Source: Pseudobutyrivibrio sp. (GTDB taxonomy: Bacteria; Bacillota; Clostridia; Lachnospirales; Lachnospiraceae). From it: a stretch of 64,000 nt of DNA. Where the stretch lies: the NCBI GenBank assembly GCA_024693775.1, contig JAILKL010000016.1:1-64000 (forward strand). Direction: 5' to 3'. The notes under the pieces are model-generated. The model worked only from the letters and a program-made list of their open reading frames with translations. It was not told the DNA's origin and ran no database searches. This document shows positions 25,576 through 41,843 of this stretch, piece after piece; within the stretch, counting starts at the first letter, position 1; each line of letters begins with the position of its first letter. Both the position numbers and the translations under genes were made by a program.

Positions 25576-26064
25576 ATGGATAAAAAAGTTGTCGAGTTAT
25601 TGAATGCACAGGTAAACAAAGAATTTTTTTCTGCTTATTTGTATCTAGGTATTTCCAAGTTTTTTACTCAAGAAAACCTTATGGGTTTTGCTTCATGGTA
25701 TAGAGTTCAGGCGGAGGAAGAGCAGGAGCACGCCATGAAGATTTACAATTATCTTCTTGAGCAGGACCAGGATGTTACTTTAGATCCAATCAATGCAGTT
25801 GATATTAAGCTAAAGGATGCATTGGATGCAGCAAAGGAAGCTGATAAGCATGAGCGCTATATCACAGATTCCATCAATAAGATAATGGATGCTGCAGTTG
25901 CAGCAAAGGATTATAGAACTCAGCTCTTCTTGAACTGGTTTATTTCAGAGCAGGAGGAAGAGGAGAATAATTCTAAGGAGATGATTGCTAAGATTGAAAT
26001 GGTAGGAAAGGATAAAAAGAGCCTTTATCTATTAGACAAAGAGGTTGGCGGTCGTCAGGGCTAA
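25576..26064 (+). CDS. ftnA: Ferritin
   Basis: LLNAQVNKEFFSAYLYLGISKFF, EEEQEHAMKIYNYL, FLNWFISEQEEEE. Confidence 0.95.
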   Translation: MDKKVVELLNAQVNKEFFSAYLYLGISKFFTQENLMGFASWYRVQAEEEQEHAMKIYNYLLEQDQDVTLDPINAVDIKLKDALDAAKEADKHERYITDSINKIMDAAVAAKDYRTQLFLNWFISEQEEEENNSKEMIAKIEMVGKDKKSLYLLDKEVGGRQG

Positions 26065-26079
26065 TTTTTATAGAATATA

Positions 26080-26125
26080 AAAGCTTTCGAAATGGAGATT
26101 ATTCCATATTCGAAAGCTTTTTTTA
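26080..26125. terminator. Bidirectional intrinsic terminator
   Basis: AAAGCTTTCGAA...TTCGAAAGCTTT stem, T-run. Confidence 0.9.
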
Positions 26126-26654: not shown

Positions 26655-27287
26655 ATGCGATACATATGCCAAGTATGTGGATATGTGTACGATGAGGCTA
26701 AAGAAAATGTCTCCTTTGAACAATTGCCAGATGATTGGAAGTGCCCTTTATGTAAAGCATCTAAGGATGCTTTTGCTCCAGAGGCTGCACAAAATCAGGC
26801 GCAACCGGTTAGTGTTAATTTGGAATCGGCAGATATGAAAAAGCTAACGCCAGGACAACTTTCTGCAGTTTGTTCCAATTTAGCAAGGGGCTGCGAAAAG
26901 CAGTATATGGCCAAGGAAGCCGATTTGTTCAAAGAATTAGCTGATTATTTTGAGACAATTACTCCTAAGGTTAGTGACAAAACAGTTGATGATGTTGCTA
27001 GAATTTTACAGGAGGATATTGATAATTATCCAAATGTAAGAGCTGTGTCTGATCAAAATAATGATCGAGGTGCAGCGAGAATTTGTGTATGGGGCGAAAA
27101 GGTAACCCGTATGTTAGCTTCACTAGTGAATAGATATTTAAATGAGGGTGAGGCGATGCTTGCGGATACAGAAATTTGGGTGTGCACTGTATGTGGCTTT
27201 GTTTATATTGGTGATGCACCACCAGAATTATGTCCTGTATGCAAGGTTCCTCCTTTTAAATTTGAAAAAATAGAAGGGAGGGCATAG
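26655..27287 (+). CDS. Double-rubredoxin protein with ferritin-like middle region
   Basis: N-terminal [15 protein letters not shown]...[13 protein letters not shown] rubredoxin and C-terminal [25 protein letters not shown]. Confidence 0.8.
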
Positions 27288-27290
27288 GTA

Positions 27291-28475
27291 ATGGAAAAGA
27301 AGGCCGTTAGAAATTTAAGGTTATGCACGAAAGATTGTCTTTGCCTTTATGTTTGTCCTGTGGGGGCAACGGATACTGAGGATAGCATTATAGATGTAGA
27401 AAAATGCATAGGCTGTGGAGCTTGCGCCCAAGCTTGCCCAAGCGCTGCAATTTCCATGGTGCCAACAGAATATCCACCTCAGCAGCCAAAGGCAGATGAA
27501 GTAAAGGCAATTTTGAATGATTTAGCTAAGAGTAAATCTGATGGTGAAACAATTGCAAAGGAAATAGCAGCATCTACTGATAAAGATGGTTTAAGTAGAT
27601 TGATGCAGGCTATTGCAAAATCAGAAAGACTTGTGGCGGAGGATATAGTTCGTGAAGCCGGTTTTATGTTGCCACAGAGTGGTAACAGTCACGAATTACT
27701 TAATTACCTTTTGGAAAATCCTCCTACAAAAGAATTTCCTAAGGACACAGTTAAAAAGATTTTAGAAGTAGTACCTGATAACGATAATAAAACAGTAAAA
27801 AGAAAAGGAGATCTAAACATGGCAAAGTGGAAATGTACAGTATGTGGTTATATTCATGAAGGCGATCAGCCACCAGAGGTATGTCCTGTTTGTAAGCAAC
27901 CAGCAAGCGTTTTTGAAAAGATTGAGGAGCCAAAGACAAATAATCCTTATGCAGGAACAAAGACAGAGAAAAACCTATGGGAAGCTTTTGCAGGCGAGTC
28001 TATGGCTAGAAACAAATATACATATTTTGCTTCTGTTGCTAAGAAGGCTGGATATGAGCAGATCGCTGCTTTATTCTTAAAGACAGCTGACAATGAAAAG
28101 GAGCATGCTAAGCTATGGTTCAAGGCTCTTGGAGAATTAGGAGATACAGAGGTAAATCTTCTTCACGCAGCCGAGGGTGAGAATTATGAGTGGACAGACA
28201 TGTATGACAAGATGGCAAAGGATGCTGACGAGGAAGGCTTCCATGAGCTAGCAGAGAAGTTTAGAGGCGTTGCTGCCGTTGAGAAGCTTCATGAAGAGAG
28301 ATATCGTGCACTTCTTAAGAATGTTGAGGCTATGGAGGTATTCAAGAAGAGCGGCGTTACTATGTGGGAATGCAGAAACTGCGGTCATGTAGTTATCGGT
28401 ACAGAGGCTCCTGAGATTTGCCCTGTTTGTGATCATCCACAGTCATTCTTTGAGGTACGTGCTGAGAATTATTAA
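27291..28475 (+). CDS. 4Fe-4S ferredoxin - rubrerythrin fusion
   Basis: [11 protein letters not shown] and [16 protein letters not shown] ferredoxin motifs; C-terminal rubrerythrin ([38 protein letters not shown]) and terminal rubredoxin knuckle. Confidence 0.88.
27819..28475 (+). CDS. Possible alternative product: stand-alone rubrerythrin from internal start
   Basis: In-frame ATG at 27819 preceded by AAAAGGAG with canonical spacing; product starts [25 protein letters not shown]. Confidence 0.6.
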
Positions 28476-31976: not shown

Positions 31977-32026
31977 ATACACCTCCGTTGTAGACAAAAG
32001 GAACTGCAAATGGAGGTGTATTTTTT
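31977..32026 (+). promoter_or_regulatory. Riboswitch expression platform: hairpin sequestering folT SD, followed by U-run
   Basis: ATACACCTCC (31977-31986) pairs perfectly with GGAGGTGTAT (32012-32021), then T run, then ATG 32027. Confidence 0.82.
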
Positions 32027-32563
32027 ATGAACAAATTATCTAACACTAAGACACTTACTATTGCAGCCATGCTGACAGCCATCGGCATAGTTCTTGGCTT
32101 GTACAAGCTACCTATTTCTCAGCTGATTGAGATTAGGTTTTCATCCCTGCCACTTTCTGTGGCTGGCATGATGCTTGGCCCATGGATTGCAGGTGTAGTA
32201 GGAGCATTAATTGATATCGGTGGATTTTTGGTATATCCAACTGGTGCTTTCTTCCCAGGCTTTACACTTAGTGCAGTATTATCAGGTATTGTCTTTGGAA
32301 TTATGCTCCACGACAAGAAAATAACTATCGCCAGAGTGTTTATAACAGAGCTTATTATCACAGTCTTTATAAACCTATTATTAAACTCTTTCTGGCTGGA
32401 TCTAATGTATTTTTCAGTAGATGGCCACGTTACAATACAAAGCTATTTTGCTGCTATTAGTACTAGATTTCCAAAGGAAGCAATTATGCTTTTTGTAAAT
32501 ACAGCAATGCTTTATGCATTATTAAAGGCATTCAAGAGTATTAAAATAGGAGCTAGAGCATAA
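32027..32563 (+). CDS. folT: Folate ECF transporter S component
   Basis: ECF S-component TM pattern plus THF riboswitch and downstream folC. Confidence 0.9.
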   Translation: MNKLSNTKTLTIAAMLTAIGIVLGLYKLPISQLIEIRFSSLPLSVAGMMLGPWIAGVVGALIDIGGFLVYPTGAFFPGFTLSAVLSGIVFGIMLHDKKITIARVFITELIITVFINLLLNSFWLDLMYFSVDGHVTIQSYFAAISTRFPKEAIMLFVNTAMLYALLKAFKSIKIGARA

Positions 32564-38280: not shown

Positions 38281-38312
38281 GGGGCTTACATATTTGTAGG
38301 CCTCTTTTTTTA
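38281..38312 (+). terminator. Intrinsic terminator
   Basis: GGGGCTTACA/TGTAGGCCTC stem (two wobbles) then T7. Confidence 0.75.
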
Positions 38313-39684: not shown

Positions 39685-40062
39685 ATGGCATTATATAGTG
39701 AAAAGGTAATGGACCATTTTAGAAATCCAAGAAATGTTGGAGTAATCGAGGATGCAGATGGAGTAGGAGAAGTAGGAAATCCAGTCTGCGGAGATATTAT
39801 GAAAATATATTTGAAGGTTGATGACAATGAGGTCATTGAGGACGTAAAGTTTGAAACCTTCGGCTGTGGCAGTGCAATTGCCTCTAGCTCAATGGCCACT
39901 GAGCTCATTATGGGCAAGCCAATTACAGAGGCATTACAGCTCACAAACAAGGCAGTAACAGAAGCCTTAGATGGATTGCCTGCACACAAGCTTCACTGCT
40001 CAGTTCTTGCTGAGGAAGCAATCAAGTCTGCAGTGGATGATTATTATAAGAATAATAAGTAA
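39685..40062 (+). CDS. iscU: Fe-S cluster scaffold protein (IscU/NifU N-terminal)
   Basis: MDHFRNPRNVG, GNPVCGDIMKIYL, FGCGSAIASSS, KLHCSVLAEEAI. Confidence 0.96.
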   Translation: MALYSEKVMDHFRNPRNVGVIEDADGVGEVGNPVCGDIMKIYLKVDDNEVIEDVKFETFGCGSAIASSSMATELIMGKPITEALQLTNKAVTEALDGLPAHKLHCSVLAEEAIKSAVDDYYKNNK

Positions 40063-40068
40063 ATTTGC

Positions 40069-40120
40069 AATCCCCTTTTAAAATCAGTAGAATAGAAAAA
40101 GACTGAATTAAAAGGGGATT
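40069..40120 (+). promoter_or_regulatory. SD-sequestering hairpin in front of the NhaC-like gene
   Basis: AATCCCCTTTTAA (40069-40081) perfectly complementary to TTAAAAGGGGATT (40108-40120); inner TCAGT/ACTGA; GGGG 8 nt before ATG 40126. Confidence 0.78.
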
Positions 40121-40125
40121 TAATT

Positions 40126-41439
40126 ATGATAAACAATAGTGATCATCCAAAGGCTAATCCCAAAGCCCTTTTACCAATAGCACTATTTTTGATTTTATAT
40201 TTAGGCAACGGAATATATTTTCAATATATTGCACCTATAGAGGGCCAGATGGGATTTTATGTAGTATCAGTTGTATTGTCATTTACAATAGCACTGATAT
40301 TTGCGTTCATACAAAACAAAGGAAAAACCTTCGAGGAAAAGATACATATTTGTGCTGAGGGTATTGGTGATGACAACATTGTCACCATGCTATTTATTTT
40401 TATATTAGCAGGTGCCTTTAGTGGTGTTGCCGGAGAGGCCGGAGGAGCATCCAGCACAGCTAATATGCTTTTAAGCGTACTTCCTAGTAGATTTGCCATG
40501 CCAGGCCTATTTATAATTGCCTGTCTTATTTCCATGGCCATGGGTACTAGTGTGGGTACCATTACAGTTCTTGCACCTATTGCCTGTGCGGTTTCAGAAA
40601 ATGGTGGCCTTAGTCTTCCATTTTGTGTAGGTGTGGTTGTTGGTGGTGCCATGTTTGGCGACAATCTATCCTTCATTTCGGATACTACAATTGCAGCTAC
40701 AAAGACTCAGGGCATTAGCATGAGAGACAAGTTTGACGCCAATCTAAAGATTGCACTTCCATCTGCAATTATTACCATGATAATTCTTATCGTATATGCG
40801 ATACAAAGCGGTGGGGCTGATATTGGAACCTTTGATTTTAATATTTTCCAGGCGCTACCATATTTTATAGTTTTGCTTTTGTCGGTGCTTAGCGTAAATG
40901 TATTTATTGTACTTCTTCTTGGATGTCTTATGTTTATCGGAGTGGGAATGTTTACAGGCTCTCTTACCTATGTATCTGGTCTATCTTCCATGGGAGAGGG
41001 TATAGCCAGCATGTTTGAGACTATGATTGTTACCATATTAGTGGCATCAGTTGCATCTTTAATTAGAGAGTATGGTGGATTTGAGGCGATTCTTTCTCTG
41101 ATTAGAGAAAAGGCCGGAAATAAAAAAGGAGGAATGCTTGGTATCGCATTCCTTACAATGTTTATGGATGTGGCCACTGCAAACAATACAGTAGCCATTG
41201 TTATAGCAGCACCAATTGCAAAACAGATAAGCGAAGAATACAACGTAGAACCAAAGAAAACAGCATCACTATTAGATACCTGCTCTTGTATTATGCAAGG
41301 AATCATACCTTATGGTGCCCAGCTTCTAGTTGCTTCAAATATAGCAAAGATAGCCAGCTTTTCATTGATTCCATTTTTGATATATCCATTCGTCTTACTA
41401 TTCTTTGTTGTTGGAATGATTTTAAAAGAAAATAATTAA
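40126..41439 (+). CDS. Na+/H+ antiporter NhaC family protein
   Basis: GDNLSFISDTTIAATKTQG motif, 10+ TM. Confidence 0.85.
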   Translation: MINNSDHPKANPKALLPIALFLILYLGNGIYFQYIAPIEGQMGFYVVSVVLSFTIALIFAFIQNKGKTFEEKIHICAEGIGDDNIVTMLFIFILAGAFSGVAGEAGGASSTANMLLSVLPSRFAMPGLFIIACLISMAMGTSVGTITVLAPIACAVSENGGLSLPFCVGVVVGGAMFGDNLSFISDTTIAATKTQGISMRDKFDANLKIALPSAIITMIILIVYAIQSGGADIGTFDFNIFQALPYFIVLLLSVLSVNVFIVLLLGCLMFIGVGMFTGSLTYVSGLSSMGEGIASMFETMIVTILVASVASLIREYGGFEAILSLIREKAGNKKGGMLGIAFLTMFMDVATANNTVAIVIAAPIAKQISEEYNVEPKKTASLLDTCSCIMQGIIPYGAQLLVASNIAKIASFSLIPFLIYPFVLLFFVVGMILKENN

Positions 41440-41843
41440 GAGTTAACCAAATCAGAAAGCTTTTTATTGAAAAAGAAATCTTTCTCTAGCTCATAAAATT
41501 CTGTCCACATTGGAAGTGTCTTGCATACTTCCTCTCGTGGGCATTTTTTTGCGTCTTTTGCAAGACAGGCTACAGGTGCAATGCTGCCTTCTAAAAGCTC
41601 AATGATTTGCCCAACAGAATATTCCTCAGGTGATTTTGTAAGCTTATAGCCGCCGCCCTTTCCACTGACACCGGCAATCAATTTGCCACGGACTAGATCC
41701 TTTACGATAATCTCCAAATATTTTTTGGAAATATCCTGTCTTTCGGCAATATCCTTAAGTGGAACATATTCATCAGGATTTTGCTGAGCTAAATCAATCA
41801 TGACGCGTAAAGCATATCGTCCTTTTGTACTAAACATACGCAA
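41436..41843 (-). CDS. Rrf2 family transcriptional regulator (IscR-like, 3 Cys)
   Basis: FSTKGRYALRVMIDLA, SGKGGGYKLTKSPEEYSVGQIIELLEG; Cys triplet CLAKDAKKCPREEVC. Confidence 0.93.
   Translation of the reverse strand: MRMFSTKGRYALRVMIDLAQQNPDEYVPLKDIAERQDISKKYLEIIVKDLVRGKLIAGVSGKGGGYKLTKSPEEYSVGQIIELLEGSIAPVACLAKDAKKCPREEVCKTLPMWTEFYELEKDFFFNKKLSDLVNS

Follow-up and report, generated by a model that had tools for sequence, protein, structure and literature searches.

A hairpin over the nhaC ribosome-binding site of Pseudobutyrivibrio, threaded by a conserved promoter: possible insulation from iscSU read-through

The analysis of the window, that is, the whole 64,000-nucleotide stretch of DNA under study from the rumen bacterium Pseudobutyrivibrio sp., showed that the Shine–Dalgarno (SD) sequence of an NhaC-family transporter gene (nhaC) lies within the 3' arm of a perfect 13-bp hairpin. 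A conserved sigma-A-like promoter, overlooked in the initial annotation of this region, is threaded through the same hairpin. Computation directly showed the hairpin and the conserved promoter-like elements, as well as the order of these parts and their recurrence in relatives. We give about an even chance to the explanation that the hairpin insulates nhaC translationally from iscSU read-through, in the manner of the late genes of phage T4. Polymerase passing iscU, which no terminator separates from nhaC, would make a transcript with both arms, and the hairpin on this read-through transcript would close before the AUG is made and hide the SD, so that the iscSU message would yield little transporter. 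The gene's own promoter spans the 5' arm and the loop; because its predicted start is downstream of that arm, its transcript would be without the arm and could be translated. Expression of nhaC would then follow its own promoter and not iscSU, and the transporter would probably be made only from that promoter. The existence of both transcripts, their start positions and their differing translation are what we infer from this arrangement. As the hairpin holds a conserved promoter, it can be given a simpler role than the switch or coupling proposed in the initial annotation.

Gene neighbourhood and structure of the hairpin

The genes follow in the order iscS (38469), iscU (39685), the NhaC-family transporter gene (40126) and a convergent gene of an Rrf2 regulator (41436–41843). 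The iscU/nifU-type Fe–S scaffold gene (39685–40062, + strand; PF01592 and TIGR03419) is upstream of and co-directional with nhaC (40126–41439, + strand), which encodes 437 amino acids and was assigned to its family by profile matches (PF03553). The match to the NhaC profile TIGR00931 reached only 84 bits, far under the equivalog cut-off of 370, and therefore the substrate is not fixed as that of NhaC. The 3' end of iscU in the window (40040–40062) is without the C-terminal tail of about 20 residues (..DNNGIEYDPADFPEEHDCEACH..) that was found in nearly all members of the genus.

The comparison set consisted of 29 genomes of the genus, whose GTDB-named relatives are Pseudobutyrivibrio. The nhaC gene, with 84–100% identity, was present in 11 of them and directly followed iscSU in 10. 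Since four genomes (G027, G011, G019 and G015) have the Rrf2 gene just after iscU with no nhaC between, nhaC can be regarded as an optional guest at the iscU site. In G009, the nhaC gene (L113, G009:C1:1057945-1059235) is split across two reading frames and is possibly a pseudogene or the product of a sequencing error.

The 5' arm of the hairpin, AATCCCCTTTTAA (40069–40081), is 100% complementary over 13 nt to the 3' arm, TTAAAAGGGGATT (40108–40120), with a 26-nt loop between them; both arms are on the + strand and pair in the predicted fold. The 3' arm contains the SD AAAAGGGG (40110–40117), 8 nt before ATG 40126, and the best pairing of the site with the anti-SD is −7.8 kcal/mol, for AAAGGGGA. 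An inner 5-bp stem with its loop (40084–40106), TCAGT at 40084–40088 against ACTGA at 40102–40106, lengthens the main stem in the predicted fold, where a 2/1 internal loop separates the 13 outer pairs from these 5 and a 13-nt loop closes the hairpin; the hairpin alone amounts to −19.6 kcal/mol. The 5' arm begins 6 nt after the iscU stop codon (40060–40062). The initial annotation agreed with this on the arms, the SD, the inner stem and the distance from the iscU stop. On the long transcript, the computed probability that the SD is unpaired was 0.001.

The folding of positions 40040–40160 (121 nt) gave −24.2 kcal/mol (z = −3.4), and 1 of 200 shuffles was as good. The duplex between the ribosome-site region and the upstream 56–57 nt was significant under two definitions (p = 0.001 or 0.003), with dinucleotide shuffles of the upstream part as the control. 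The window contains two perfect inverted repeats of 13 bp with a loop no longer than 40 nt; 20 shuffled windows contain none. The pair CCCCTTTT...AAAAGGGG has a single occurrence in the whole genome, and a mobile or repeated element was rejected because the inverted repeat is found once in this genome.

A stem at this place could also belong to the 3' end of the iscSU mRNA, either as an intrinsic terminator of weak or partial effect or as a protecting or cut stem, its overlap with the ribosome-binding site being incidental. The lack of any other terminator between iscU and nhaC favours such an element. Moreover, several members of the genus without nhaC carry a hairpin and a T-run after iscU, and in five members (L138, L139, L140, L142 and L143, near 1501–1551) mreB is separated from flagellar genes by a similar CCCCTTTT...AAAAGGGG hairpin, which lies in a different context and is not homologous to the nhaC hairpin. 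Intergenic stem-loops and processing sites are also reported for operons of Clostridium cellulolyticum (PMC4423207). The hairpin likewise resembles an intrinsic (rho-independent) terminator in its strong, G+C-containing stem and its intergenic position. It differs from one in that its 3' arm is the SD itself and, as the initial annotation had noted, in that no strong U-run follows: the tail ATTTAATTATG scored 3.0 vs. 5.6 for the nearby terminator at 38281–38304, making it a poor terminator. The terminator scan did not report it, although the 8-nt loop limit of the scan would exclude this hairpin anyway. Among the 10 loci with nhaC after iscU, none has a hairpin with a T-run in the gap. In relatives, the arms end in CTATTTAATG and a T-run is missing; the 3' arm falls on the ribosome site in every case. 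A 3' end element is, in our estimate, unlikely, though partial termination may still occur in the window.

The predicted promoter within the hairpin

The comparison of the gaps between iscU and nhaC revealed two conserved islands, of which the upstream one reads TTTGCMA, 17–18 nt and TANAAT. In the window, the predicted −35 element is TTGCAA (40065–40070, + strand) and the predicted −10 element is TAGAAT (40088–40093, + strand), with a 17-nt spacer; the latter falls within the inner stem and loop. The pattern TTGC-17/18-TANAAT was present in 10 of 10 iscU–nhaC loci, G009 and G022 reading TTGCAT. As inferred from the −10 position, transcription would start at about 40100 (± 3 nt), and the mRNA borne by this promoter would have a 5' leader (40100–40125, + strand) without the 5' arm of the hairpin. 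Across the relatives, the leaders measured 26–33 nt from the predicted start to the AUG.

Between the iscU stop and the promoter island lie 4 to 34 nt, depending on the locus, and the place of the promoter is fixed relative to nhaC, not to the iscU stop. The same holds where the gene lies elsewhere: TTGACT-17-TAAAAT stands at the same place in a locus with nhaC behind a MATE-type gene (L031), and TTGAAG-17-TACAAT in a locus with nhaC behind a tRNA array (L038). TANAAT was thus found at the homologous place in 12 of 12 loci, and the promoter is common to the 12 nhaC loci of this Pseudobutyrivibrio clade. Because they are kept with nhaC at these other sites, there is good evidence that the conserved elements are a putative sigma-A-type promoter belonging to nhaC.

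The initial annotation read the hairpin as a translational switch, opened by a ribosome terminating on iscU or by temperature, ions or pH. Its core, a hairpin sequestering the SD, stood and recurs in relatives; the triggers found little support. The position of the 5' arm, so close behind the iscU stop in the window, speaks for coupling. The terminating ribosome, judged by its footprint size, presumably reaches roughly 40072–40073, but blocking up to there left the SD 99.6–99.8% paired in the model, and only blocking to 40075–40077 freed part of it. In relatives, the 5' arm lies 27–59 nt after the iscU stop, which is beyond the reach of the ribosome. The SD stayed over 99% paired at every temperature up to 60 °C, its unpaired probability being 0.0011 at 37 °C, 0.0017 at 42 °C and 0.0096 at 60 °C in the model. 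Like RNA thermometers (FourU, ROSE) and riboswitches, the element sequesters the SD in a 5' hairpin. Unlike the thermometers, it has a perfect stem of 13 bp, which in the model stays closed at physiological temperature, and, unlike in FourU, its UUUU is opposite AAAA and not the SD core. Unlike riboswitches, it has no aptamer-like domain, and the Rfam scan gave nothing above threshold and one sub-threshold chance match to a snoRNA; the transporter's TIGR00931 score, being below the cut-off, gives no support to an ion or pH switch. Coupling to iscU or a condition-dependent switch is accordingly very improbable.

Recurrence in relatives and computed masking

In 8 of the 10 other loci without a terminator before nhaC, a hairpin masks the ribosome site, with arms that differ from those in the window. 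In the window and in every relative with a hairpin, the 5' arm is upstream of the predicted start. Six relatives share the complementary islands AATAGTTTC, overlapping the −10 element, and GAAACTATT, just after the SD, which are separated by variable loops of 16–22 nt. In G008, AATAGTTCC and GGAAGCTATT pair with a bulge in a shifted version of the relatives' hairpin, while L031 has a 17-bp stem, made of 11 + 6 bp around a bulge, that reaches the SD (p = 0.0014). In the window, AATAGTTTC has been lost and the arms are new, the 5' arm being placed earlier, across the −35 element and the spacer. In L038, where a tRNA array and a strong terminator precede nhaC, no hairpin was found (p = 0.69). Most hairpins of the relatives are A–T rich and reached individual p values of 0.006–0.04 (0.34 in G008), which cannot be multiplied, as the relatives within the clade are not independent.

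Covariation counting on a joint alignment was set aside, as MAFFT misaligned L031. The alignment columns do not correspond because the arms occupy different places in the window and in the relatives, and the six relatives with identical arms offer nothing to count as covariation. Judged from these sequences, the architecture is conserved and the sequence has turned over, which is not classical column-by-column covariation. A survey of 80 nhaC orthologues found no family-wide hairpin: significant ribosome-site hairpins were concentrated in this clade and the rest looked random. The hairpin is therefore a feature of one clade.

The inverted repeat could also be a DNA operator, through which a transcription factor, e.g., the product of the Rrf2 or LysR genes that adjoin nhaC in the window, would act on the nhaC promoter. 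The arms flank or overlap the −35 and −10 elements and the predicted start, and AATAGTTTC and GAAACTATT are invariant in six relatives. However, a protein site would be expected to keep its sequence and spacing, which a hairpin need not. Arm sequence and position are wholly different between the window and the relatives, the spacing (16–22 nt in the relatives and 26 nt in the window) does not follow whole helical turns, and L031 retains pairing through an altered, bulged stem. This makes an operator quite unlikely.

The masking of the ribosome site was expressed as its opening cost (computed free energy) on the read-through transcript minus that on the promoter transcript. In the window, these costs were 18.0 and 6.8 kcal/mol, and the masking of 11.2 kcal/mol ranked first among 52 ORFs, for which the median was 0.8 and of which 6 reached 4 kcal/mol. 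This background, drawn from the window only, comprised the 52 ORFs with a Shine–Dalgarno sequence, each of which was given the same 28-nt leader. Masking was 4.1–7.0 kcal/mol in L031 and in seven relatives with nhaC after iscU, with an opening cost on the promoter transcript of 1.4–2.6 kcal/mol in these eight, while the difference behind the strong terminator in L038 was 0.2 kcal/mol. Moving the start anywhere from −3 to +2 nt had little effect, except in L031, where the gain drops to about 3 at −3.

Some results count against insulation. G009 and G022, which are nearly identical upstream, are almost without masking (0.6–0.7 kcal/mol). Moreover, the ribosome site is not free on the window's promoter transcript, where possible pairing of the SD (GGGATT) with AATCCC of the coding region brings the opening cost to 6.8 kcal/mol.

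The absence of a significant hairpin in G009 and G022, and the few found among other Lachnospiraceae nhaC orthologues, would suit mere chance, i.e., an A–T rich promoter and ribosome site that happen to be complementary. The significance in the window (p = 0.001–0.003), the lack of such repeats in shuffled windows and masking of at least 4 kcal/mol in 8 of the 10 other co-directional clade loci vs. 6 of 52 window ORFs argue against it and leave chance highly improbable.

Known systems and other hairpins of the window

Translational control by a hairpin that a promoter skips is known from phages. Ribosome sites hidden by hairpins are described for I-TevI, I-TevII, I-TevIII and segB of T4 and for mobE of phage Aeh1, and sequestration also occurs in T4 soc and e; in I-TevI, only early transcripts fold into the structure, which the late promoter skips (PMC2988022). 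As predicted for nhaC, the site in T4 late genes and Aeh1 mobE is sequestered on long upstream transcripts, and the transcript of the promoter just upstream of the gene is too short to form the structure. There, however, the control belongs to a phage programme of early-to-late promoters and was shown experimentally for some genes, whereas the present case is a prediction for a transporter gene on a chromosome, whose promoter is sigma-A-like and which has no homology to these systems. The transposase genes of IS10 and IS50 have a fold-back protection against read-through from outside. Here too, entering transcripts fold over the ribosome site and the own-promoter transcript does not; their device guards against transposition, unlike in this ordinary gene pair. 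A literature search of partial coverage, and hence of weak evidential value, found no chromosomal example of control by a promoter that skips a hairpin.

The hairpin persists while its 5' arm shifts in sequence and position, between the spacer in the window and the −10 region in the relatives and L031, and the hairpin is lost behind a strong terminator, a contrast that rests on one locus (L038). We suggest only tentatively, and with some doubt, that a read-through insulator on the promoter of a chromosomal gene has been kept by selection. Were this a general pattern, many translational insulators may take the place of inter-operon terminators in Firmicute genomes. Insulation of nhaC would in itself show that a device familiar mainly from phage T4 and transposons also keeps neighbouring chromosomal operons apart, and genes seen to be co-transcribed by RNA-seq would then not have to be co-expressed. 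The arrangement is ordinary in principle and a good testable example.

Of the window's two perfect 13-bp inverted repeats, the other (26079–26121) lies in the gap between genes ending at 26064 (+) and 26126 (−) and is probably a bidirectional terminator. A second hairpin hiding a ribosome site, CCTCCTTTT...GAAGGGAGG (27235–27293), precedes the gene at 27291, whose masking of 9.4 kcal/mol ranked second of the 52 window ORFs. As its 5' arm is within the 3' end of the preceding frame, true translational coupling to that frame is plausible there. A strong hairpin, ACACCTCC...GGAGGTGT (31980–32029), is followed by ATTTTTT and then directly by an ATG (32027); it may be an attenuator or terminator right at the start codon, or the start codon may be misplaced.
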